64,000 bases of DNA from Aminithiophilus ramosus. Lineage in GTDB: Bacteria; Synergistota; Synergistia; Synergistales; Aminithiophilaceae. The stretch's first letter is position 1. Every line of letters starts with the position of its first letter. The translations under genes and the position numbers were made by a program. Shown here in pieces: positions 1 to 12,239 of the stretch. Where the stretch lies: the NCBI RefSeq assembly GCF_018069705.1, contig NZ_CP072943.1, forward strand, positions 1,737,453-1,801,452, in the 5' to 3' direction. The notes beneath the pieces are model-generated. The model was not told where the DNA came from. It worked only from the letters and a program-made list of their open reading frames with translations, and did not search any database.

Positions 1-132
1 GTGACGGATTTCGGCGCCTTTGATCCTCTGTCCGTCGAGTTCCAGGGAAATGTCGAGGGGTTCCGTGAACCCTCTCTGTCGGCAGGATAGATTGAAGGGA
101 GTCATGACGGCCTCCTGAAGCGGATCGCTCAT
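1..132 (-). CDS. mbhL: Membrane-bound hydrogenase large subunit (MbhL/NuoD-like), N-terminal fragment
   Basis: Only the first 44 codons are inside the window; the gene continues past position 1. The ATG at 132 overlaps the stop of the upstream NuoC-like gene by 4 bp (ATGA). The fragment has no diagnostic motif of its own. The call rests on position: it directly follows MbhJ (NuoB-like) and MbhK (NuoC-like) genes in the order seen in archaeal mbh operons, where the next gene is the [NiFe] large subunit. The CxxC pairs that would bind NiFe lie beyond the edge, so hydrogenase and the related sulfane reductase (Mbs) cannot be told apart here. Confidence 0.6.
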   Translation of the reverse strand, partial: MSDPLQEAVMTPFNLSCRQRGFTEPLDISLELDGQRIKGAEIRH

Positions 133-647
133 TGTCTCGATCGGGGCGGTTCGAACTCGTGGCGCCAGGGTTTGACCGCCTCCCATCCCTCGGGCAGGAA
201 AAGGCGTCCCCTTTTGGACTGGCCGGTGAAATCGGGGCCGAGCATTTCGAGGACCTCCCGCTCATCGTACTCGGCGGAAGGGAAACGGCCCTGAAGAGAG
301 GGCATCAGGAGATCCCCTTTGGGGAGAGACACCTCGAGGGTGACGTGAAAGCGCTTTCCCCTTTCGGCGCAGCGGAAAAGGGCGAAATCGTAGCGGAGCA
401 ACACCGACATCCCCCTATCCTCCCCGGAAAGGCACATGAAGTGAGGGCGATCGAATTCGCCCAGGCAATCGACACCTTCGAGAAAGCGCCGGCGGGGAAG
501 AGCCACGGTCAGAAGTCGGGGACGTCCCTCCCCTCCCCCGAGGGAAGAACCCTCGATATCGTCGCCGAGGAGATCCTCCAGACGGGACAGGACGTCTTGG
601 GGAGCACTCGCCGTCGCGGCATATCCGGAAAGATCGGGATCGGTCAC
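129..647 (-). CDS. mbhK: NuoC/30-kDa-like hydrogenase subunit (MbhK)
   Basis: A 172-residue soluble protein resembling the 30-kDa NADH dehydrogenase/hydrogenase subunit, which joins the large subunit to the rest of the peripheral arm. The C-terminal third has the usual NuoC-like signature: a Phe-Pro-Ser-Ala-Glu-Tyr-Asp-Glu-Arg-Glu stretch, then a Met-Leu-Gly...Asp-Phe-x-Gly segment and an Arg-Leu-Phe-Leu-Pro-Glu-Gly-Trp motif. The start is the GTG at 647. It has a GGAGG 8 bases upstream and overlaps the stop of mbhJ as GTGA; longer readings only extend into mbhJ in another frame. It sits between the small and large catalytic subunits. Confidence 0.72.
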   Translation of the reverse strand: MTDPDLSGYAATASAPQDVLSRLEDLLGDDIEGSSLGGGEGRPRLLTVALPRRRFLEGVDCLGEFDRPHFMCLSGEDRGMSVLLRYDFALFRCAERGKRFHVTLEVSLPKGDLLMPSLQGRFPSAEYDEREVLEMLGPDFTGQSKRGRLFLPEGWEAVKPWRHEFEPPRSRQ

Positions 648-1096
648 AGCGAACGCCTCCTCTCGGAAAGGGCACAGCGTCTCTCCACTTCCAGGACGAC
701 TCGAGTAAGGCCTTCGACGAGCGCCTCCGGCCTTGGAGGACAGCCCAGGACGTAGACGTCGACGGGCAGAATCGCGTCGAGAGGCCCACAGCCGACGGGA
801 GAATCGCGGAAGATGCCTCCCGAGACGGCACAGACGCCGAAAGCCATGACCAGCCTCGGTTCGGCCATCATGGCATAGGTCCGGCGCAACAGGTCGACCT
901 GACAGGAACAGACCGCCCCCGTCACGAGGAGCAGATCGGCCTGTCTGGGACTCTCGACGCAACGGACCCCCAGACGCTCCAGGTCATAGCGGGGCCCGAA
1001 AGAGGAAAGCCACTCGCCGTCACAGCCGTTACAGGAACCGCTGTTCCAATGATAGATCCAAAGAGATTTGGACAAAGCCTCCCATGAACGTTCCAT
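644..1096 (-). CDS. mbhJ: Membrane-bound hydrogenase small subunit (MbhJ/NuoB-like)
   Basis: A 150-residue NuoB-family subunit carrying the proximal [4Fe-4S] cluster next to the catalytic site. Visible ligands are the CNGCD motif near residue 22, a Cys in GVCAVSGG near residue 88 and the Cys of VLGCPPRPEA near residue 118, in the spacing typical of energy-converting hydrogenases and complex I. Its ATG follows directly after the stop of the MbhI gene. It is the best single marker that this operon encodes an electron-transfer complex rather than a plain Mrp antiporter. Confidence 0.85.
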   Translation of the reverse strand: MERSWEALSKSLWIYHWNSGSCNGCDGEWLSSFGPRYDLERLGVRCVESPRQADLLLVTGAVCSCQVDLLRRTYAMMAEPRLVMAFGVCAVSGGIFRDSPVGCGPLDAILPVDVYVLGCPPRPEALVEGLTRVVLEVERRCALSERRRSL

Positions 1097-1432
1097 TCAG
1101 CGTAATCCTCCTCCGAGGAGAACGGCGATCAGCAGAAGAGCCATAAAAAGGACGAGGACCCCTGTCTGATCGGGGACAAGGTCCGTACATCGTCTCTCCT
1201 CGAGGCCGCCGGGAAAATCGATCCTCTCCGTGAACGACCGGGGAAGGGAGAGGGGGGGGAACATCGTACTCTGGGAGAACGCCTTTTCCGAACCTCCGGA
1301 CGAGGCGGAAGAGCGGAAATCCCGACGGCCCAGGCCGGTTACGGCAAGGACGATCAAAAGGGCCAGCAGAAAGGAGAGAGACCAGCTGAGCCCGTTCCAG
1401 TAACCGAAGCCGCTGTAGACCTGAACGGCCAT
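1097..1432 (-). CDS. mbhI: Small membrane subunit MbhI-like
   Basis: A 111-residue protein with one hydrophobic helix near residues 14-34, a hydrophilic middle of about 45 residues and a second helix at residues 89-108. In Pyrococcus mbh operons a two-helix protein of about this size (MbhI) links the antiporter module (MbhH) to the peripheral hydrogenase arm, and this gene holds exactly that place. Sequence similarity alone would not identify it; the call is from order, size and topology. It abuts mbhH and mbhJ with no spacing. Confidence 0.55.
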   Translation of the reverse strand: MAVQVYSGFGYWNGLSWSLSFLLALLIVLAVTGLGRRDFRSSASSGGSEKAFSQSTMFPPLSLPRSFTERIDFPGGLEERRCTDLVPDQTGVLVLFMALLLIAVLLGGGLR

Positions 1433-2992
1433 TTAGAGTCCCCCTCCCAGCACGGCCTCGATGTAGCCGCGCTGATTGAGAAGGGCGGCCGCCGCCGGGT
1501 CGACCCAACGTCCCAGGGACCAGGAGGGAAGGGCGGAGAGAAAACCGATCAGGACAAGGAGTCCTCCGACGACGAGCAGGGTGGGCAGAGGCGTCTCTCG
1601 GCGGGGAAGGACCTCCCCGGTCCCCAGAAAGGCGGCGTGAAAAGCGCGGATCAGGGCGGCGGCGACGGCGACGGAAGCTCCTATCGAAAGAGCTCCCAGA
1701 AGGGGCTGAAAGACGACGAGAGATTGGCTGAGCAGGAGTTTCGGCACATAGCCGACAAAGGGAGGAAAGCCGGAGAGGGTCCAGGCGGCGACGAAAAAAG
1801 AACCTGCCGCCAGGGCCCCGGCTCCGCCGCGGAGGTGGAGCCGGTCGAGGCGGGTCGTTCCCTCCTGACGTCGAAGAACTCCGACGCAAAGAAGCAGCAG
1901 CGAAGAGGCAATGAGCAAAACCGACCACTGGGCCAGGGCACCGCGAAGAGCCGTCAGACCGTAGTCGGCCATGGCACGGGCATCGCCGAGGCAGGAAAGG
2001 GCGACGCCGAGGCCGAGGAGGATATAGCCGATTTGGGAAAGGACGATCCAGGCCGTCAGAGAGCTCAGGTCATCGGCCTTCAGGGCGAAAAGCACGCCGA
2101 TGAGGAGAGAGAGCGCGCCGGAAAGCAGAAAGGTGCCTCCGAGGACCTCGCCGCCGAGAACCGTGCCGTAAAGAGAGAAGACGACGCGCATCAGGCCGTA
2201 AAGACCGACATGGACTCCGGCAAGGAGGAGACAGGCCGTGCCGGTCGACGTCACGGAGAAGGGGCCGACGAGAGAAAAGTGAAAGGGAACGCTGCCGCAG
2301 CGGCTTAGCAGAGCGGCGACGAAAAAGACGAGAGCCGCCTTTTCGGCGAGGCCGAAGGGCATGGAGCGGGCCAGGGCTGCAAGGGCCGCCGTGTCGTAGC
2401 GCCCGTAGAGAAGGGCCACGGCCGCCAGGATCAGGGAAAGGGTCAGGGACGAGAAGGCGAGTCCGTTGAAAGCCACGGTGAGCGCCGAGCGATGGTCCCT
2501 GTCCAAGGCGACCAGAGCCCAGGACGCCAGGGAGAAGAGACCGAGGAAAAGGGCGAAGTTGAAAAGGTCTCCCGTGACGATCAGGGCCAGGCCGGAAGCC
2601 AGGACCAGGAAATGAAGAAGCGTCGGCGTCGCGTCGTTACGGCGCCCGCCGTCGTCGGAGAGGAAGGCAAGAGCGCCGACAAGGCAGGCTACGGCCAAAA
2701 GCAGCGAAGAGAAAGAGGCGAAGCCGTCGACGGCGAGGACAATGCGGAGAGGAGCGAAGACGCCCTGGGACAGGACCAGGTTCCAGGCCTCGGCACCGAT
2801 GACATACAGGGCCACTCCCGAATGGGCCACCCTGCTCCAGAGGAGAGCGACCAGCACGGCGGTCGCCATCGACAGAAGGACGAGCCAGAGACGTCGCGCC
2901 ACCCCGCCGAAGAAGGCGACGGCCGGAGTCCCGAAGGCTCCCAGCAGCGGAAGCAGAACGATGAGAACGGGAAGGTGAATCTGCCAATCCAT
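1433..2992 (-). CDS. mbhH: Proton/sodium-translocating antiporter-like subunit (MbhH/MrpD/NuoM family)
   Basis: A 519-residue polytopic protein of the Mrp antiporter/complex I family (Proton_antipo_M), with about 13-14 hydrophobic segments. Family landmarks are TGDLFN at residues 140-145, a VPFHFS motif at 235-240 and the Leu-Lys-Ala-Asp-Asp-Leu-Ser-Ser-Leu-Thr-Ala-Trp run ending in SQIGY. At the place of the strongly conserved TM5 glutamate (GDLFNLYVFFE in relatives) it has Gly151, and the TM7 lysine before PFH is Arg231. This suggests altered ion coupling. It overlaps the MbhG gene by 1 bp and abuts mbhI. Only one large antiporter-like subunit is present, which favours Mbh over Mbs, which has two. 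Confidence 0.82.
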   Translation of the reverse strand: MDWQIHLPVLIVLLPLLGAFGTPAVAFFGGVARRLWLVLLSMATAVLVALLWSRVAHSGVALYVIGAEAWNLVLSQGVFAPLRIVLAVDGFASFSSLLLAVACLVGALAFLSDDGGRRNDATPTLLHFLVLASGLALIVTGDLFNFALFLGLFSLASWALVALDRDHRSALTVAFNGLAFSSLTLSLILAAVALLYGRYDTAALAALARSMPFGLAEKAALVFFVAALLSRCGSVPFHFSLVGPFSVTSTGTACLLLAGVHVGLYGLMRVVFSLYGTVLGGEVLGGTFLLSGALSLLIGVLFALKADDLSSLTAWIVLSQIGYILLGLGVALSCLGDARAMADYGLTALRGALAQWSVLLIASSLLLLCVGVLRRQEGTTRLDRLHLRGGAGALAAGSFFVAAWTLSGFPPFVGYVPKLLLSQSLVVFQPLLGALSIGASVAVAAALIRAFHAAFLGTGEVLPRRETPLPTLLVVGGLLVLIGFLSALPSWSLGRWVDPAAAALLNQRGYIEAVLGGGL

Positions 2993-3333
2993 CAGAGAGA
3001 CCTCCGGATTTCGTCGATGTCAAAGGTGCCGTAACGGCGATGGAGAAGCAGACCGAAGGCCAAGAGGAGGGCCGTAAAAAGCGACGAGACGACGAGGATG
3101 GCCATGGCCATGGCCTGAAAAGAGGGGAGGGACATCCGCCCGCCCTCGGAAGCGAGGGAGAAGAGGGGCACTCCACCGGCATTGCGGTAGCCGAGGGCCA
3201 CGAAAAGAAGGGCCGTCGACGACTGGAGGAGGGAAAGAGCCATGACGATCTTGACGACATGCCTCGCCAGAAGCGCCCCTCCCAGCCCGAGACAGAGGAG
3301 GGCGGCCACTCCGGGAAAAATCAAGTCAGACAT
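2992..3333 (-). CDS. mbhG: MrpC/NuoK-like subunit (MbhG)
   Basis: A 113-residue, three-helix membrane protein matching the MnhC/MrpC/NuoK family in size and hydrophobicity; it would form part of the ion-translocating membrane arm. The second helix begins Ala-Leu-Ser-Leu-Leu-Gln-Ser-Ser, close to the family's usual 'sl.L..sav.L' pattern, and the third contains Ala-Met-Ala-Met-Ala-Ile-Leu-Val. The ATG at 3333 was chosen over longer readings because those only run through the 3' end of the upstream gene, which it overlaps by 8 bp. Confidence 0.68.
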   Translation of the reverse strand: MSDLIFPGVAALLCLGLGGALLARHVVKIVMALSLLQSSTALLFVALGYRNAGGVPLFSLASEGGRMSLPSFQAMAMAILVVSSLFTALLLAFGLLLHRRYGTFDIDEIRRSL

Positions 3334-3796
3334 GGAAGGAGTCCTCCCCGCAGGATCGTCCTCTTTCGCCGAAAGCCGCGAGAATGGCGCCGAGGGCACC
3401 GGCAGCGAGCAGGAGGAGAACGACATTTGTCAGGGCGATCGTCCCCGACGCGTTCAGAAGGCCGTCGTTGGCTCCTTCCGGCAGGCTTCCGCCGAAGAGA
3501 CCGCCCTGGCCGACCAGCACGTTGCGGAAAAAGGTGAAGTGAAAGCCGAGGGAAGCCACGGCCAAGAGGGCAAGGGAACCGGCTCCGCGGGCCAGGGCCA
3601 AGCCGGATTGAAGAGCGCTTCCAGGCCGTGAGAGCTTCCCGGAAGAGACCGCGAAAAGGGCCAGAGCCACGGCCACGGAAAGACCTCCCGTCAGGCCGTC
3701 GCCGATGCGGAGGTGACCGAAAAGGGCCTGGCGAAGACCGAAAAGGCCGCAGGCCAGAGCGAAGAGAGACGGGATTCGGGGAGGACGAAACATCAT
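3326..3796 (-). CDS. mbhF: MrpB-like subunit (MbhF)
   Basis: A 156-residue membrane protein with four predicted helices, in the place of MrpB/MbhF. A Gly-Leu-Thr-Gly-Gly-Leu segment near residue 35 recalls the 'GGGF.GG' turn of MnhB, and a late Gly-Thr-Ile-Ala-Leu-Thr-Asn-Val helix fits the family's last segment. Overall it is quite diverged, so the name depends partly on its place between MbhE and MbhG. It overlaps MbhE by 4 bp. Confidence 0.55.
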   Translation of the reverse strand: MMFRPPRIPSLFALACGLFGLRQALFGHLRIGDGLTGGLSVAVALALFAVSSGKLSRPGSALQSGLALARGAGSLALLAVASLGFHFTFFRNVLVGQGGLFGGSLPEGANDGLLNASGTIALTNVVLLLLAAGALGAILAAFGERGRSCGEDSFHV

Positions 3797-4086
3797 CGGC
3801 CCTCCTCCGCCTCTTCACGCAGGAGGGAGACGACGGAGACGGAGACGGCGACGAGGCAGCCGGCCAGGGCGATGATATCGAAACTCCGGTAATCGAAGCC
3901 GACGGCCGTGACGAGGTCATTGGCTCCGGTCTCCGTCTGGGCCCTCGCGAGATAGCGACCGTCGACGACGGGACTCTGGGGCTCGCCGAAAGGCTGAACG
4001 CTACGGAGAGCCCCGCTGAAAAGCCCGGCGAGAAGGACAAAAGAGACGAGACTCACAAACCGCATCGAGATCATCGTCTTCGACAT
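3793..4086 (-). CDS. mbhE: MbhE-like hydrogenase subunit
   Basis: A 97-residue protein with an N-terminal hydrophobic helix (residues 8-26) and a C-terminal helix (about 70-88). The middle Gly-Ala-Asn-Asp-Leu-Val-Thr-Ala-Val-Gly-Phe-Asp-Tyr-Arg-Ser-Phe-Asp stretch matches the 'g..N.VtaiLvdfRafDT' signature of the MrpA C-terminal region, which exists as a separate MbhE subunit in membrane-bound hydrogenases. It overlaps both neighbouring genes. Confidence 0.72.
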   Translation of the reverse strand: MSKTMISMRFVSLVSFVLLAGLFSGALRSVQPFGEPQSPVVDGRYLARAQTETGANDLVTAVGFDYRSFDIIALAGCLVAVSVSVVSLLREEAEEGR

Positions 4087-4331
4087 CTCAAATCGCGCCC
4101 CTTTCTGCAGGCTCGGAAAACGAAAAGGTAGAGAAGGGCAGGAAAGGTCACTCCGAACAGGAGCTGCCCCAGGGCCACGGCAGGGGCCCGGAGGACCGCG
4201 AAGACGAGAGCCAGACAGAGCCCCGAGGCGGCCAGGGCCTGGACGGACCGGAGCGGACGAGACGAGAGAAGGGCGAAAAGGCCACAGACGAGAACGAGAA
4301 AGAGCAGAAAACCTGCCGGGAAAACGTTCAT
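4071..4331 (-). CDS. mbhD: MbhD-like subunit (DUF4040)
   Basis: An 86-residue, three-helix membrane protein. The Val-Leu-Arg-Ala-Pro-Ala-Val-Ala-Leu-Gly-Gln-Leu segment at about 46-57 fits the DUF4040/MbhD signature ('LrAPDVAlTe..vG'), the part of MrpA that lies next to MbhE. The acidic residues usual in that signature (Asp after AP, Glu after Leu-Thr) are Ala and Gln here, another sign that this membrane arm has diverged. The start at 4331 overlaps the MrpG stop as ATGA and overlaps MbhE by 16 bp at the other end. Confidence 0.68.
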   Translation of the reverse strand: MNVFPAGFLLFLVLVCGLFALLSSRPLRSVQALAASGLCLALVFAVLRAPAVALGQLLFGVTFPALLYLFVFRACRKGRDLRCRRR

Positions 4332-4669
4332 CGCAGAGGGCCCTCTGTCATCCCTGAAGGTTCTCCGTCGGAGGCGTTTTCCCGTCTCTTCTCCGCCAGG
4401 GCCCCTTCGACCAGCTCCCTCTGAGAGCGTGCGAGAAGGAGGAAGCCGACGGCGACAACGGCGGCGTTCAGGGCGAAATTCGGCCCCTGACCTCTCTCTT
4501 TGGCCAGGCCGAACTGGCCGTAAAGTCCGACGGCAAGAGAGACCAGAAGGGCACCGGAAAGGAAGGAAACCCGACGCACCGGGGAAAAGGGGCACCGCCA
4601 AAGGGCGACGGCGCCGACCATGGACAGAAGAAGCCCGAAGACGAGGGCGATCAGGAAAAAAACGGACAT
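4328..4669 (-). CDS. MnhG/MrpG-like subunit
   Basis: A 113-residue protein with about three helices and a hydrophilic C-terminal tail. It lies where MrpG/MbhC is expected, after the MrpF-like gene. It lacks the 'D...R.HA' motif that marks typical MrpG proteins (it has a Trp-Arg-Cys-Pro-Phe-Ser-Pro-Val-Arg-Arg stretch instead), so family membership is inferred from size, topology and operon order. It is separated from the MrpF gene by 2 bp. Confidence 0.5.
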   Translation of the reverse strand: MSVFFLIALVFGLLLSMVGAVALWRCPFSPVRRVSFLSGALLVSLAVGLYGQFGLAKERGQGPNFALNAAVVAVGFLLLARSQRELVEGALAEKRRENASDGEPSGMTEGPLR

Positions 4670-4671
4670 CG

Positions 4672-4929
4672 CTACAGGTCTCCTTCCTGGAATAGGCGGA
4701 AAGAAAGATTCAGGACGTAGGAAGAGACGAGAAGGACGATGGCCACATCGAAAAGGGGGAAGGCGTCTCCCGAGGGAATGAGGAGAAGCGCCAGAAGAGG
4801 CGTCGCCGTTCCCAAGACGCCGAAAGCGGCTGAGGCCTCTTCATCGCCTACCGCCGACAGGAGCCTGGCCACGACGGCACACAGCATCAGAAGGGCGGCA
4901 AAAAGCGATAGGGAGAGGAAAACCGTCAT
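4672..4929 (-). CDS. MnhF/MrpF-like subunit
   Basis: An 85-residue three-helix protein like MrpF/MbhB. The last helix contains Asp-Val-Ala-Ile-Val-Leu-Leu-Val, matching the 'DvalvyalLsFlgt' pattern of the family. The ATG at 4929 has an AAAAGGAGGGGG ribosome binding site. No MrpE/MbhA homologue precedes it: the 76 bases upstream lead straight into the MOSC gene. Confidence 0.6.
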   Translation of the reverse strand: MTVFLSLSLFAALLMLCAVVARLLSAVGDEEASAAFGVLGTATPLLALLLIPSGDAFPLFDVAIVLLVSSYVLNLSFRLFQEGDL

Positions 4930-6366: not shown

Positions 6367-8721
6367 CTATTTCCGGCGGAAGCGGACGACGGTGACGCCG
6401 TACCCCCCTTCGCCGGGACCGCCGAGGCGATACTCCTCCACATAGGGCGTCTCCTTGCAGAGATCCTGAACGACCTGCCGCAGCACGCCCGTCCCTCGGC
6501 CGTGGATGAGGGTCACTTCGGAATAACCGGCCCGGTAGGCCTGATCGAGATAGCGCTCCAGGATAGGAAGAGCCTCGTCGACGGTCATTCCCCGGACCAT
6601 GACGGAAGAGGGAACCCCCTGAGGACGGGAGACGTTGATCTTCACCGTCTCGACGGGAGCCGCCTCCTTTCGGGCGGTCAGGCGAAGCTGCTCGAGGGGA
6701 ACATCGACACGAAGGGAACCGGCCTGGACGACGGCCTTTTTCCCCCTGATTTCCGCCACGGCCCCCTTGATGGCCGATCCGGCGACGGCGACTTCGTCGC
6801 CCACGGCCAAGGGCCGTTCCCCAGGCGGTCCGGCAAGCCGTTTCTTGCGGAGCAGACTCCGCCTTTCGGCCTCGTCGCGCAGACCGTCGACGCCGCGTTT
6901 GTGCGAGGTCATCTGGCGATGAGCGGCGGAAGCGGCCGCTCCCTGAAGCTCCTTGAGCAGGGAACGGGCCGTCCTTTCGGCGTCGTCGAGGATGGAAGCG
7001 GCCTTCCGGTCCGCCTCCTCGATGAGCCCCTCCCGCCTCTGTTCCAGACAGGCCAACTCCTCCTCGAGCGTCTTCCCGAGGCGATCCGTCGCCTCTTTCT
7101 CTCGGGTCATTTCAGCCTCCAGGCGATCGAGATAGCTCTGTTTGGCCTGAAGGCGGCCGATAAGCTCGTCCATGGCGCTCCCCTCTTCGCTCAGGGCCGC
7201 CTTGGCCCTTTCGACGACGCCGGGGGGAAGTCCCAGGCGGGAGGCGATGAGGAGGGCGTTGCTGCGGCCCGGAATGCCCATGAGAAGGCGATAGGTGGGA
7301 GAGAGGGTGAAGGGATCGAACTCGACGCTGGCCGTCTCCACCCCTCCCGCCGTGAGAGCGAAACGCTTGATGGGATTGTGATGGGTCGTGGCCAGGACGA
7401 GGCTCCTTCTCTCCAGCAGCTCCTCGAGAATGGAGATGCCCAGGGCGGCCCCCTCCTGGGGATCCGTCCCTGCCCCGAGCTCGTCGAGGAGGACGAGGGA
7501 GGTCTCCTCGGCCTCTCCGAGGATGGAGATGATATTGCGCATGTGGGCGCTGAAAGTGGAAAGATTCTGCTCGATGCTCTGCTCGTCGCCGATGTCGATC
7601 AGGATCGCCCCGATCTCGCCGACGACGGTTCCTTCGGCCGCCGGAACGGGCAGGCCGTACCAGGCCAGGGAGAGCGCGACGCCGACGGTCTTGAGGGCCA
7701 CCGTTTTGCCTCCCGTATTGGGGCCGGTGACGACGAGCTGACGGAATCGGCGGCCACACTGAATGTCGATGGCCACGGCTTTCTCCCCCAGAAGGGGATG
7801 GACGACCTTTCTGAGGTCGAAGAGGGCCTTGTCCGTCACTTCCGGCAAGGTCCATCTGCGACGATCCATCATCTCCCCCGCCCCATAGGCCAGATCACAC
7901 CAGGCCAGAGCCGCCTCGGCATCGGCAAGAGCCCCTTCGCGACGAAGCATGGCCTCCGTGATCTCCCGGAAAAGGCGATGCTCCTCCTCCCGCTCCTCCT
8001 GCAGCAAAAGGGCGAGAGAGTTGTTGAGGGGGACAAGACCGTTGGGCTCCATGTAGAGCGTATTGCCCGAGACGGAACGGTCGACGACGATGCCGGGGAA
8101 GACGCCGACGTGTTCCTGCTTGACGAGAACGACAAAGCGACCGTTCCGCAAAGAGAGAAGACGGTCCTGAAGCATGGACTGTATCGAGGGGTCGTTCAGC
8201 AGTTTCTGCCCGTCCCGCCGGAGGCGATTGCGGACCTGCTCCAGCGATTTGCGGATTTTCGACAATTTGGGCGAGGCGCTGTCGTAGAGTTTCCCGTCGT
8301 CGGCTATGACGGAAAGGGCCTTCAGCTCCTCGTCGAACTCGCGGATTTTCCGGGAAAAACGCCAGAGAAAGGGGAAGTCCTCCTTCTCCTCGGAAAGGCG
8401 CAGGCGAATTCGCGAGGCCACGGAAAGAAGCGTCCGGATGCGAAGAAGCTCCTCGCCGGTGAGATGGGAGGAGGTCTTGGCCTCGACGAGGAGTTCCGTC
8501 ACGGTGCGTAGATCGTCGGACCAGGGCAGTTCGCCGAAACGGTCGCGGAACCGCAGATAATCCCGAAAGAGCTCGTGGCGGGCCCGAAGGCGGCTTCCCT
8601 CGGAGGCGGGCTCCAGACGCAGAAGGGCGAGAAGGCCGAGATCGCTTCTACAGCGGGAGGCAAAGAGATCGAGGATTTTGTCCAGTTCCAGAAGGGAACG
8701 GGCCGAATCAGAAAGTCGCAT
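6367..8721 (-). CDS. mutS2: Endonuclease MutS2
   Basis: A 784-residue MutS2, a DNA-binding ATPase/endonuclease linked to suppression of homologous recombination and, in Bacillus, rescue of collided ribosomes. The core ATPase shows the Walker A GPNTGGKT near residue 330, a Leu-Leu-Asp-Glu-Leu-Gly-Ala-Gly-Thr-Asp Walker B segment and the following His-His signature. A long Glu/Arg-rich coiled coil comes next. The C-terminal Smr nuclease domain has His-Gly-Arg-Gly-Thr-Gly-Val-Leu. Length and domain order are normal for the family. It overlaps cvpA by 14 bp. Confidence 0.96.
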   Translation of the reverse strand: MRLSDSARSLLELDKILDLFASRCRSDLGLLALLRLEPASEGSRLRARHELFRDYLRFRDRFGELPWSDDLRTVTELLVEAKTSSHLTGEELLRIRTLLSVASRIRLRLSEEKEDFPFLWRFSRKIREFDEELKALSVIADDGKLYDSASPKLSKIRKSLEQVRNRLRRDGQKLLNDPSIQSMLQDRLLSLRNGRFVVLVKQEHVGVFPGIVVDRSVSGNTLYMEPNGLVPLNNSLALLLQEEREEEHRLFREITEAMLRREGALADAEAALAWCDLAYGAGEMMDRRRWTLPEVTDKALFDLRKVVHPLLGEKAVAIDIQCGRRFRQLVVTGPNTGGKTVALKTVGVALSLAWYGLPVPAAEGTVVGEIGAILIDIGDEQSIEQNLSTFSAHMRNIISILGEAEETSLVLLDELGAGTDPQEGAALGISILEELLERRSLVLATTHHNPIKRFALTAGGVETASVEFDPFTLSPTYRLLMGIPGRSNALLIASRLGLPPGVVERAKAALSEEGSAMDELIGRLQAKQSYLDRLEAEMTREKEATDRLGKTLEEELACLEQRREGLIEEADRKAASILDDAERTARSLLKELQGAAASAAHRQMTSHKRGVDGLRDEAERRSLLRKKRLAGPPGERPLAVGDEVAVAGSAIKGAVAEIRGKKAVVQAGSLRVDVPLEQLRLTARKEAAPVETVKINVSRPQGVPSSVMVRGMTVDEALPILERYLDQAYRAGYSEVTLIHGRGTGVLRQVVQDLCKETPYVEEYRLGGPGEGGYGVTVVRFRRK

Positions 8722-9250
8722 CGGGCGAGGCGGGAGCGGCAGGCACCGGAATCGAATCGAAGGCGAGCCCGTTCTCGTGCAGATAGGGGATCAGCCGCGG
8801 CCAGATCTGGGCGGCAAAGGAGAGGGAACGGCTCCCCTCGCTCCACTGAGGGGGAACGAGAGGACCGGCCATCAGGAGTCCCCCGTAGACGACGAGCAGG
8901 ATGGCGATCCCCTTCAGAGCGCCCGCACCGAGCCCGAGAAGGCGGTCGAGAAGAGAAAGGTGCGTCGCCTTCAAGAAGGCCCCCACGAGACGGCAGAGCA
9001 GGGCCGCCGCCAGATTGACGGCGACGAAGACGGCGACGAGCCCCACGCCGTAGGCGACGTTCTCCGTGATATCGAAATGACTGCGCACGAAGCCCGCCAC
9101 GACGTCGGCGCGGGCAAAGGCCAGGTAGAGCCCCCCCAAGGTTCCGGCAAGGGAAAGGACCTCGCCGGAAAGACCTCGGAAAAGGCCGCGGAGAGCGAGA
9201 GAAACCGTTATGAAAAGAAAGGTCATATCGATGACGGCGCCGAAACTCAA
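8708..9250 (-). CDS. CvpA family membrane protein
   Basis: A 180-residue protein with four hydrophobic helices in the first 130 residues, in the pattern of CvpA (colicin V production) proteins: Arg-Gly-x-x-Arg-Gly-Leu early, a Gly-Leu-Gly-Ala-Gly-Ala-Leu-Lys-Gly turn near residue 105. Its role is poorly defined; it is often found beside mutS2 and zapA. The TTG at 9250 is the preferred start because it follows AAGGAGGAG and overlaps the zapA stop by 3 bp. Confidence 0.78.
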   Translation of the reverse strand: MSFGAVIDMTFLFITVSLALRGLFRGLSGEVLSLAGTLGGLYLAFARADVVAGFVRSHFDITENVAYGVGLVAVFVAVNLAAALLCRLVGAFLKATHLSLLDRLLGLGAGALKGIAILLVVYGGLLMAGPLVPPQWSEGSRSLSFAAQIWPRLIPYLHENGLAFDSIPVPAAPASPDATF

Positions 9251-9501
9251 CGGGACTCCTCCTTGAGAAGCGCCTCCAGGCGATGGCGAATTCTCTCCAG
9301 CTGCCAACCGTAACGCAAAAGGGCCAGCAAAAGCCGCTCCTCCTGCCCGACGGAGGGACCGCCCGACTCCTCGATGACGACGTTCAGAGGGACGAGAAGG
9401 CGATCCAGCTCGTCATCGGTCAGAGGCGTTCGGATCGGGTAGGTCTTTTTGCCGACGCGCAGCCGGACTCGGCGCATTTCGGCGCCGGGCAATTCCGTCA
9501 C
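9247..9501 (-). CDS. zapA: Cell division protein ZapA
   Basis: An 84-residue ZapA-like protein that would stabilise FtsZ filaments at mid-cell. After a short leader it has Arg-Val-Gly-Lys-Lys-Thr-Tyr-Pro-Ile, the beta-strand start usual for ZapA, and then a helical second half suited to the dimer/tetramer coiled coil. The ATG at 9501 overlaps the upstream gene as ATGA. Weak sequence conservation is typical of this small family. Confidence 0.65.
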   Translation of the reverse strand: MTELPGAEMRRVRLRVGKKTYPIRTPLTDDELDRLLVPLNVVIEESGGPSVGQEERLLLALLRYGWQLERIRHRLEALLKEESR

Positions 9502-9818
9502 CGCGAGGCGGCCGCCGCTCCGCCTGTGGCCAGGGGACGTTCCGCCCCATAGAGCTTGTCAAGCTTTTGCGCAAGGGAGCTGAGACGCTGCTCCATCTGG
9601 TCTTTCTCTTTCTGAAGGGACATGCGCTCGCGCTCGGCCTGCTCGATGAGGCGCTGATTTTCCTTGCGGACGCGGATCAGCTCAAGATCCTTTTCCTGGA
9701 GCGCGCGCCGGGCCTCCTGAAGCTGTTCCCCTATCTGGACCTTCTCGGCCTCGAGATTCTGGACCTTTTCCGTCACCTTATCAAGGATTTTCTCGAACTG
9801 TTCCAGACGCTCCAGCAT
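9498..9818 (-). CDS. Small coiled-coil protein, possibly ZapB-like
   Basis: A 106-residue protein that is almost wholly a coiled coil (residues 1-90: repeating Leu/Ile with Glu, Lys and Gln), with a short Ala/Gly-rich tail. Translation is coupled to zapA by a 4 bp overlap, which suggests a joint role at the division ring, comparable to ZapB. That function is inferred from context only; coiled coils give little family signal. Confidence 0.6.
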   Translation of the reverse strand: MLERLEQFEKILDKVTEKVQNLEAEKVQIGEQLQEARRALQEKDLELIRVRKENQRLIEQAERERMSLQKEKDQMEQRLSSLAQKLDKLYGAERPLATGGAAAASR

Positions 9819-9842
9819 GAAATGACCTCCTTTGTCGGAGAG

Positions 9843-12239
9843 CTAGCGGAGACGATAGCCGGCCGCTTCGAGGGACTCCCGAAGCGCTCGGTGGTCCCCC
9901 TCGATCTCGGAATCGACGAGAGTCCGCTCGGGGTGACGGTAGACCAGGCTGAAGGCCAGGCTCCGCATCCCCTCGGGCAGGGAAGGCCCCTCGTAGACAT
10001 CGAAAAGCTCTACCCCTTCGAGCATAGCACCGCCGTGACTTCTGATGAAGTCCCCAAGGAAGGCGGCCGTCACCGATCGGGGAGCCAACAGGGAAATATC
10101 GCGCAAAAGAGCGGGGAAAGGGGTCTCGGAGGCGAAGCGGGGCCTCTTGTCGCCGACGAGGGATTGAAGGTCGAACTCGAAGGCGTAAAGGGGAGCGCCG
10201 AGGTCGAGTTCCTTTTCGAGCAGGGGCTTGAGTCGCGTCAGATAGCCCACGGGACGGCCATCGACGCGAAGCGTCGCCGTCTGTCCGGCGTGGCCGAAGG
10301 GAAGCCTATCGGGGCAAAAGGAGGGAACGACGCGGCAGGCCGCCAGAAGGGCCGTCACGTCGGCCTTGACGGAGAAGAAGTCCTCGGCTCCCCTCGCCCC
10401 GTAAAGGGCCTTGCCCTGCCGGCCTCCGTAGAGAACGGCGCCGAAACGCCGCCTCTCGTCACATCCCGTCCGGCCCTCCGCGGGAACAAAAATATCGCCG
10501 ATTTCGAAAAGGCGCAACTCCCCGCGCCAGCCCTTGCGAAGATTCCCCGACAGAGCCTCGAGGAAGGAGGGCAGCAGCAGGGGACGCAGAACGGACTGTT
10601 CCCGGCTCAGGGGATTGGTCAGCTCCAGAAGCTCCTCGTGTCGCCCGAGTCCCAGCCTTCCGACGGACTCGGGCGACACGAAACTGTACTGGACGCTCTC
10701 CATGTAGCCCCGCGCCATGGCCGTCTCCCGCAGCTTTCGCCAGAGCAGAAAGGCCTCGCCGACAGTCCCCGTGTCCCGGGGCCGGCCGGGCAGCCTCGCC
10801 GGGATGACGGCGTCCGTATAGCCCCGAACGCGGGCCACCTCTTCGATGAGATCTTCCTCGATGTTGACGTCAGGCCTATAGCTGGGAACGTAAAAGGTCG
10901 TGCCCTTTTCCCCTCTCCGTTCGGCATCGAAACCCAGACGGGAAAGGATTCTCTCGGCCTCTTTCATGTCGTCCCAGAGGAGATAGCGCCTCATCTTGTC
11001 CCGGGTGAGCTCGACTTCTCCGATGGCTTCCGTCCGACGGCGCCGGAGGTGAATCGAGGGCTGAGGACGACCGGCGTTCCAGCGGGAGATCAGCGAGAGG
11101 GCATAGCCGAGAGCCACAAGACTCCTGGCGGGATCGACGACGCGGGCGAAGCGATAGGCCGCCTCCGAGTTCAGGCCGAGGCGCCGCGAAGTCCGGCTGA
11201 CCCGGATGGGATCGAACCAGGCCGTCTCCATGAGGACCCGTCTCGTCCCCTCGAAAATCTCGCTGTTCTCCCCTCCCATGACGCCGGCCAGGGCGACGGG
11301 GCGACCTCCGCTGGTGATAAGAAGATCCTGGCCGTCGAGAGAGCGGTCCTTGCCATCGAGAGTTCTCATCGTCTCGCCGGGCCGGGCGGACCTGACGGTG
11401 ATCTCCGGCGAAGGGAGCCTGTCGAAGTCGAAGGCGTGAAGAGGCTGCCCCAGGAAGAACATGGTCAGGTTCGTGGCGTCGACGACATTGCTGACGGGAC
11501 GCTGGCCCAGAAGGGCCAGCCGGATCCGGGCGTCCAGGGGAGAGGGGGCGATCGCCACATCGTCGACGAAACCCAGACCGTAGAGCGTGCATCCCTCTCC
11601 CTCGAGGGTAATGCCGCCGAAATCGACGGGCCAGTGGGCGCCGTCCTGAGGCAGGTCGATTTCGAATTCCCTGAGCTGACTTCCCTCGACGAGGGCGTGA
11701 ACCTCGCGGGCCACGCCCAGCAGCGAGAGGAGATCTCCCCTGTTGGGCGTGATCGACAATTCGAGGATCTCGTCGTCCAGCCCCAAAGAGGAGACCGCGT
11801 CGGCTCCGATGACGTATTCCCCGGGCAGACGCAGGATGCCCGGTTCCGTCTCGACGGCGGCGACTCCCAATTCGGAGGCCGACAGGGCCATCCCCTGGCT
11901 GAGAAGGCCGGAGAACTCGCGAGTCCCCATGACGGTCCCGTCGGCCAACGTGGCTCCTGGAGGGGCGTAACAGACGAGATCGCCGACGGAGAGATTGCGC
12001 GCCGCCGTGACGCAGAGGGCCTCTCCCGCACCCCTGTCGAGACGGGCCAGAAGGAGATTGGCCGACGAGGGATGGGGATCGAGAGCCACCACGCGGGCGA
12101 TCACGACGCCCTTGAGTTTCCCGCAGGGACGGACAAGCGACTCCACTTCGGTTCCCGTGAAGGTGAGACGCTCGGAGAGAAGCTCGGCGTCGATGGGGAT
12201 GTCGATCAATTCCCGAAGCCAACGAAGCGAAAGAAGCAT
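9843..12239 (-). CDS. pheT: Phenylalanine--tRNA ligase beta subunit
   Basis: A 798-residue PheT. An N-terminal EMAP-like tRNA-binding domain (about residues 40-150, with Leu-Ser-Val-Gly-Asp-Leu-Val) is followed by the B3/B4 editing domain, the B5 domain with Asp-Pro-x-Arg and Thr-Ser-Arg-Arg motifs, the catalytic-like core and a C-terminal anticodon-binding (FDX-ACB) domain that ends Glu-Ala-Ala-Gly-Tyr-Arg-Leu-Arg. With PheS it forms the alpha2beta2 enzyme that charges tRNA-Phe. The ATG overlaps the pheS stop by 1 bp (ATGA). Confidence 0.97.
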   Translation of the reverse strand: MLLSLRWLRELIDIPIDAELLSERLTFTGTEVESLVRPCGKLKGVVIARVVALDPHPSSANLLLARLDRGAGEALCVTAARNLSVGDLVCYAPPGATLADGTVMGTREFSGLLSQGMALSASELGVAAVETEPGILRLPGEYVIGADAVSSLGLDDEILELSITPNRGDLLSLLGVAREVHALVEGSQLREFEIDLPQDGAHWPVDFGGITLEGEGCTLYGLGFVDDVAIAPSPLDARIRLALLGQRPVSNVVDATNLTMFFLGQPLHAFDFDRLPSPEITVRSARPGETMRTLDGKDRSLDGQDLLITSGGRPVALAGVMGGENSEIFEGTRRVLMETAWFDPIRVSRTSRRLGLNSEAAYRFARVVDPARSLVALGYALSLISRWNAGRPQPSIHLRRRRTEAIGEVELTRDKMRRYLLWDDMKEAERILSRLGFDAERRGEKGTTFYVPSYRPDVNIEEDLIEEVARVRGYTDAVIPARLPGRPRDTGTVGEAFLLWRKLRETAMARGYMESVQYSFVSPESVGRLGLGRHEELLELTNPLSREQSVLRPLLLPSFLEALSGNLRKGWRGELRLFEIGDIFVPAEGRTGCDERRRFGAVLYGGRQGKALYGARGAEDFFSVKADVTALLAACRVVPSFCPDRLPFGHAGQTATLRVDGRPVGYLTRLKPLLEKELDLGAPLYAFEFDLQSLVGDKRPRFASETPFPALLRDISLLAPRSVTAAFLGDFIRSHGGAMLEGVELFDVYEGPSLPEGMRSLAFSLVYRHPERTLVDSEIEGDHRALRESLEAAGYRLR

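Follow-up and report, generated by a model that had tools for sequence, protein, structure and literature searches.

An MBH-type operon of Aminithiophilus ramosus with an eroded ion path and conserved metal-site cysteines

An operon of the MBH type lies at the left end of a 64,000-nucleotide stretch of the Aminithiophilus ramosus genome (hereafter "the window"; NZ_CP072943.1, positions 1,737,453 to 1,801,452). Its MrpD-like antiporter subunit, MbhH, lacks the glutamate and lysine of ion pumping, and the question raised by an earlier note on this DNA is whether such a membrane arm couples ions differently, or not at all. The operon, on the minus strand, runs within the window from MbhB through C, D, E, F, G, H, I, J, and K to the start of MbhL (Table 1), while L, M, and N extend to its left (L010) and are followed by an asparaginase. 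The window genome (G000) is a single contig of 3.11 Mb, and the sequence of Synergistota bacterium strain L-13 (CP074691.1) is 99.96% identical over 15.1 kb. Complexes of this energy-converting type normally evolve H2 from ferredoxin and pump ions in the process. Subunits B to N are present in all three members of the genus (a small group of anaerobes), namely, the window species and the sister species G001 and G002.

Table 1. Features of the MBH-type operon, in window positions
Feature	Position	Strand	Remarks
MbhB (MrpF-like)	4672..4929	-	Strongly diverged, 27-29% identity within genus
MbhC (MrpG-like)	4328..4669	-	Strongly diverged, PDVYxRxHG motif lost
MbhD	4071..4331	-	APDVA..E acids lost (APAVALGQ)
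MbhE	3793..4086	-	ET..DLV..VGFDYRSFD motif kept
MbhF (MrpB-like)	3326..3796	-	
MbhG (MrpC/NuoK-like)	2992..3333	-	
MbhH (MrpD-like), antiporter-type subunit, 519 aa	1433..2992	-	Gly151, Arg231, Gln355, Ser363 substituted; Lys418 kept
Gly151 codon, TM5 Glu position	2540..2542	-	Alignment
Arg231 codon, TM7 Lys position	2300..2302	-	Alignment
His261 codon, TM8 position	2210..2212	-	Alignment; Gln in most relatives
Ser363 codon, TM10 Lys position	1904..1906	-	Alignment; Lys in 93% of relatives
Lys418 codon, TM12 Lys	1739..1741	-	Alignment; kept
MbhI	1097..1432	-	
MbhJ, hydrogenase small-subunit homologue	644..1096	-	Four FeS cysteines kept
MbhK (30 kDa-type subunit)	129..656	-	
MbhL start, continuing left of window (L010)	1..132	-	CGSC and DPCMAC NiFe-ligand motifs kept

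P. furiosus MbhH (6cfw_H) could be aligned to the window protein with an E value of 1e-52 and, like solved MrpD, without any shift. The TGDLFN motif falls on T140 to N145, TGDIFNFYVFLEIMS pairs with TGDLFNFALFLGLFS, and LLFKSGAAPVH pairs with LLSRCGSVPFH. The earlier note had put Gly151, Arg231, and His261 at the places of the TM5 Glu, the TM7 Lys, and a TM8 Lys. All three codons are correctly located, and the first two replacements were borne out by 111 canonical relatives (from Synergistota, methanogens, Thermoplasmata, Verrucomicrobia, and others), in which the TM5 Glu, the TM7 Lys, and the TM10 His are each present in 100% and the Lys at position 363 in 93%. The loss of a TM8 Lys had to be dropped, nearly all relatives having Gln there. 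Beyond what the note described, we found two substitutions in TM10 (His355 to Gln and Lys363 to Ser), the loss of His316, and the retention of Lys418 in TM12. The TM5 Glu and the Lys residues of TM7, TM8, and TM12 are described as key residues of Mrp and as conserved in MBH (PMC7419157); a literature search of partial coverage retrieved no description of an MBH lacking the TM5 Glu.

All three species of the genus share the Glu/Lys change, which does not extend across the phylum. The 44 other Synergistales orthologues carry FLEIAS- and AMKCG-like motifs at the TM5 and TM7 places and keep the Glu, confirming that the alignment is not shifted, and, of 131 aligned relatives, only those of the window genus and of an orphan subunit trio in family f5 (see below) are without the TM5 Glu. 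Gly and Arg occupy the two positions in each of the three species, as they do in a second assembly of the window species, while the TM10 His has become Gln, Leu, and Gln and the TM10 Lys Ser, Cys, and Ser. Lys418, by contrast, is kept in all three, and a TM12 Lys is present in every surveyed Mbh-type sequence except one, the orphan trio included. The predicted fold of MbhH is intact (AlphaFold model; mean pLDDT of 82, TM-score of 0.88/0.90 to 6cfw_H). Residue 151 lies in helix 143-164, whose sole titratable residue, Asp164, stands at the helix end. Neither alignment nor model places a helix-embedded acid that would compensate for the TM5 Glu, and no new mid-helix titratable residue was found.

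Residues of MbhC, MbhD, MbhF, and MbhM have been eroded in parallel with those of MbhH. The Glu of the MbhM SYE motif, which by correspondence with NuoH is an E-channel residue, is Ala, Ser, and Ser in the three species. In none of them did the operon region yield an MbhA; the upstream place that it holds in relatives is occupied by what is presumably a MOSC-like protein. The acidic depletion of MbhD reported earlier is real in that one Asp has become Ala, one Glu Gln, and a further Glu Val. In L056 (family f4), however, the glutamate of MbhD APDVAxxE is also Gln within an otherwise intact Mbh operon, so that this single change is no mark of decay. Taken together, the ion-path losses in MbhH, MbhD, and MbhM and the absence of MbhA support the second form of the coupling claim, "not at all," and the finding is wider than a change in coupling.

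The metal sites have fared differently. The NiFe-ligand CxxC motifs of MbhL (CGSC/CGFC and DPCxAC) occur in all three species, and its NiFe cysteines, canopy Arg and Asp, and loop Glu are kept even where Hyp genes are missing. Invariant Cys residues of MbhL, MbhJ, and MbhN were kept in all three species at 17 of 18 positions, versus 132 of the 265 other invariant residues (p=1.3e-4). In the membrane subunits B, C, D, F, G, H, I, and M, charged residues had no such advantage (22/83 kept versus 144/414 other conserved residues, p=0.16, counting residues with a conservation of 90% or more among intact relatives and kept in all three genus species). Cysteines are thus kept preferentially and membrane charges are not: the redox sites are under selection, of which the ion path bears no sign. 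In the CGICSxxH motif, the His (alignment column 109) is Asn in all three species.

The whole operon is evolving fast, about 5 to 6 times faster than in relatives, every subunit included. With MutS2 (75-77% identity within the genus) as a yardstick, the MbhH/MutS2 distance ratio is 3.1-3.3 in the genus versus 0.57 (maximum, 0.80) in 120 pairs of relatives; that of MbhL is 2.4-2.8 versus 0.42, and those of MbhB and MbhC are about 6-7 versus 0.65-0.77. Still, codon positions 1 and 2 of MbhH (likeness of 0.54-0.61 and 0.66-0.71) are more alike between species than position 3 (0.38-0.39), which indicates that the Mbh proteins remain under selection, and the sister species operon has thirteen open frames. 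A run of nine G interrupts the MbhM frame of G000 (L010, left of the window, oriented 9640-10610). As proof of a dead operon this is weak, since strain L-13 (L082) has ten G in the run, a difference of one, and an open frame; the break may be a sequencing error, strain variation, or recent damage.

Pfam models for HypC, HypD, and HypF gave no match in six-frame translations of G000 and the sister species G001, nor did those for HypC and HypF in strain L-13. With none of the three maturation genes detected in the window species, its complex probably does not function as a NiFe hydrogenase. The other sister species, G002 (82% complete), has HypC-, HypD-, and HypE-like genes together with a separate canonical NiFe large subunit. 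Of the 44 genomes whose MbhH was checked and is intact, 42 have HypD, compared with 1 of the 15 whose locus is degraded (p=1.3e-10, uncorrected for kinship, the degraded set consisting of three lineages); the two intact-MbhH genomes lacking it are drafts of 330 or more contigs.

G000 also carries an FeFe-hydrogenase and a full RnfC. Across 13 Synergistales genomes, full-length RnfC was present in all 9 tested assemblies with a degraded Mbh and in 1 of 4 with an intact one, and it is possible that Rnf replaced Mbh. The search for further large antiporter subunits that the earlier note had proposed turned up four in G000, all keeping Glu and Lys; they belong to an intact Mrp locus and to an Ehr-type locus. 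The latter (G000:C1, about 2992000-2999300; L012, L209) encodes HyfB/E/F-like subunits, FeS subunits, and a fused 30/49 kDa protein. This Ehr-like product, the other 49 kDa-type protein of the genome, lacks the NiFe cysteines.

Degraded Mbh loci exist elsewhere in the Synergistales. In two family f3 operons (L059 of G088, 6571-10591; L060 of G076, 2592-4899), which sit on long branches, L and J are left with few or none of their cofactor cysteines, and HypD was not found in either genome; theirs is a separate decay. In ten family f5 genomes (L061, L073-L081), only MbhH, MbhM, and MbhI are left (I being detected in eight), and both the hydrogenase subunits and HypD are absent. The MbhH of this trio has lost the TM5 Glu and the stretch around TM7, while its TM12 Lys stays. 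Two of the M proteins were scanned (L061 and L078) and matched no Pfam or NCBIfam family. In five genomes the trio adjoins the asparaginase, as do the intact operons of relatives from f5, f6, f7, and f10. Other neighbors are a CbiQ-like transport protein and an ABC ATPase in L061 and, elsewhere, GlnRS beside the asparaginase.

In the full tree, the f5 trio groups with the window genus. When either set is omitted, the long branches separate, with the window genus falling among f10 and f5 near the base, and one f5 genome has an intact operon with the same asparaginase neighbor. Given these leave-one-out trees and that intact operon, independent losses are more likely than a single loss shared by the two groups, although not proven. 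Mbh decay thus probably occurred at least three times, the long branches leaving room for a common origin of the window-genus and f5 states.

With P. furiosus MBH (6cfw), a group 4 NiFe hydrogenase, the window complex shares the subunit set MbhB-N, the MbhH fold (TM-score of 0.88-0.90), the NiFe and FeS Cys motifs, and the TM12 Lys. It departs from it in what the genus lacks (the TM5 Glu, the TM7 Lys, the TM10 His and Lys, the MbhD acids, and MbhA) and in the missing Hyp genes of the window species. Intact Synergistales operons (e.g., L065, L066, and L049), which are orthologous and in several families have the same asparaginase neighbor, retain MbhA and the residues of the ion path and, in almost every case, HypD. 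Homologous small subunits and the MrpD fold link the complex to the Mrp Na+/H+ antiporter (6z16, 7d3u, and 7qru), whereas the GluTM5/LysTM7 pair and the ion-path residues of the small subunits, described as essential for Mrp (PMC7419157), are missing, there is no MrpA N-part, and hydrogenase-like subunits are attached. Like Ehr, it has a group 4 architecture, probably without NiFe catalysis. The two are otherwise the reverse of one another, as Ehr has no NiFe ligands and the Ehr-like locus of G000 keeps the antiporter Glu and Lys, while the window complex has all four NiFe cysteines and lacks that pair. The antiporter-like HycC of the E. coli formate hydrogenlyase also has the Lys of its Glu/Lys pair replaced (Leu208; PMC9474812), but unlike window MbhH it still has the Glu of TM5, and the NiFe hydrogenase to which it belongs is matured and active.

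Several explanations compete for this pattern. That the substitutions stem from misalignment or sequencing error is vanishingly improbable: the residues recur in three species and in the second assembly, the alignments to solved MbhH and MrpD are unshifted, and the only thing found in favor is that membrane proteins can misalign. A changed coupling, in which ions are still moved along a new proton path made up of Arg231, Lys418, and further residues, would fit the TM7 Arg of all three species, which could partly replace Lys, and the nearly universal TM12 Lys. We consider it very unlikely, because that Arg has no acid partner, the TM10 pair, the MbhD acids, and the MbhM Glu have gone as well, and no new titratable residue stands in mid-helix.

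The alternative of an uncoupled but active hydrogenase, turning over H2 at the NiFe site without energy conservation as a membrane electron valve, would account for the retention of all NiFe and FeS Cys ligands in three species and could be served by HypC, HypD, and HypE in G002. Moreover, the E. coli HycC variant E135A still makes H2 (PMC9474812, citing earlier mutagenesis), so loss of the TM5 Glu does not by itself show loss of activity. Such an enzyme nevertheless seems unlikely given that HypC and HypF are missing from G000, L-13, and G001 and HypD from G000 and G001, that the Hyp genes of G002 can serve its second NiFe hydrogenase, and that the His of CGICSxxH is replaced throughout the genus. 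Plain decay of an idle operon heading for loss would explain the speed at which every subunit evolves, the absent MbhA, and the MbhM frame break, with Rnf and the FeFe-hydrogenase as substitutes; the open frames of the sister species, the conserved first and second codon positions, the preferential keeping of Cys ligands, and the MbhM of L-13, intact with one G more, make it somewhat improbable.

We regard as probable, from comparisons of sequence, a complex with the frame of MBH that would no longer pump ions and would be kept as a redox complex, in the window species probably without being a NiFe hydrogenase; it has the look of a relic without coupling, or of a redox complex that has been given another function. 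Among the parts of this reading, the absence of ion translocation by the window complex is very likely, the absence of NiFe catalysis in the window species is likely, and it is fairly probable that the complex still has some use, as a membrane-bound redox complex. As counterpoints, NiFe cysteines kept despite missing Hyp genes are odd for a dead active site, and G002 has HypC, HypD, and HypE, though with a separate NiFe hydrogenase. The ancestor of the genus would have lost the pump first, with Hyp lost afterwards in two of the three species, an order that is probably correct. MbhH would survive as a structural membrane anchor without a through-going proton path, and the complex may persist as a membrane-bound, ferredoxin-linked redox complex under weakened selection, its former jobs perhaps taken over by Rnf (ion pumping from ferredoxin) and the FeFe-hydrogenase (H2); the takeover by Rnf is guessed from a small number of assemblies. 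A quite unlikely extension is that a metal centre is built at the four NiFe cysteines without HypC, HypD, and HypF, that MbhH, MbhI, and MbhM are kept for a role needing the TM12 Lys only, and that the f5 trio is the end point, in which case the trio would do its job in the membrane without any hydrogenase.

There is no settled account of how MBH and complex I use redox energy to pump ions. The window genus and the other degraded lineages represent a natural, repeated experiment, in which the residues of the pump were lost and metal sites, fold, and operon were kept, and which separates the needs of the pump from those of the redox chain and of assembly. Within one order there are intact complexes, complexes that have lost the pump, others that have lost the metal sites, and loci with only MbhH, MbhI, and MbhM left. 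This series of states, together with the loss of Hyp and the presence of Rnf, leads to testable predictions on how such machines are dismantled or reused.
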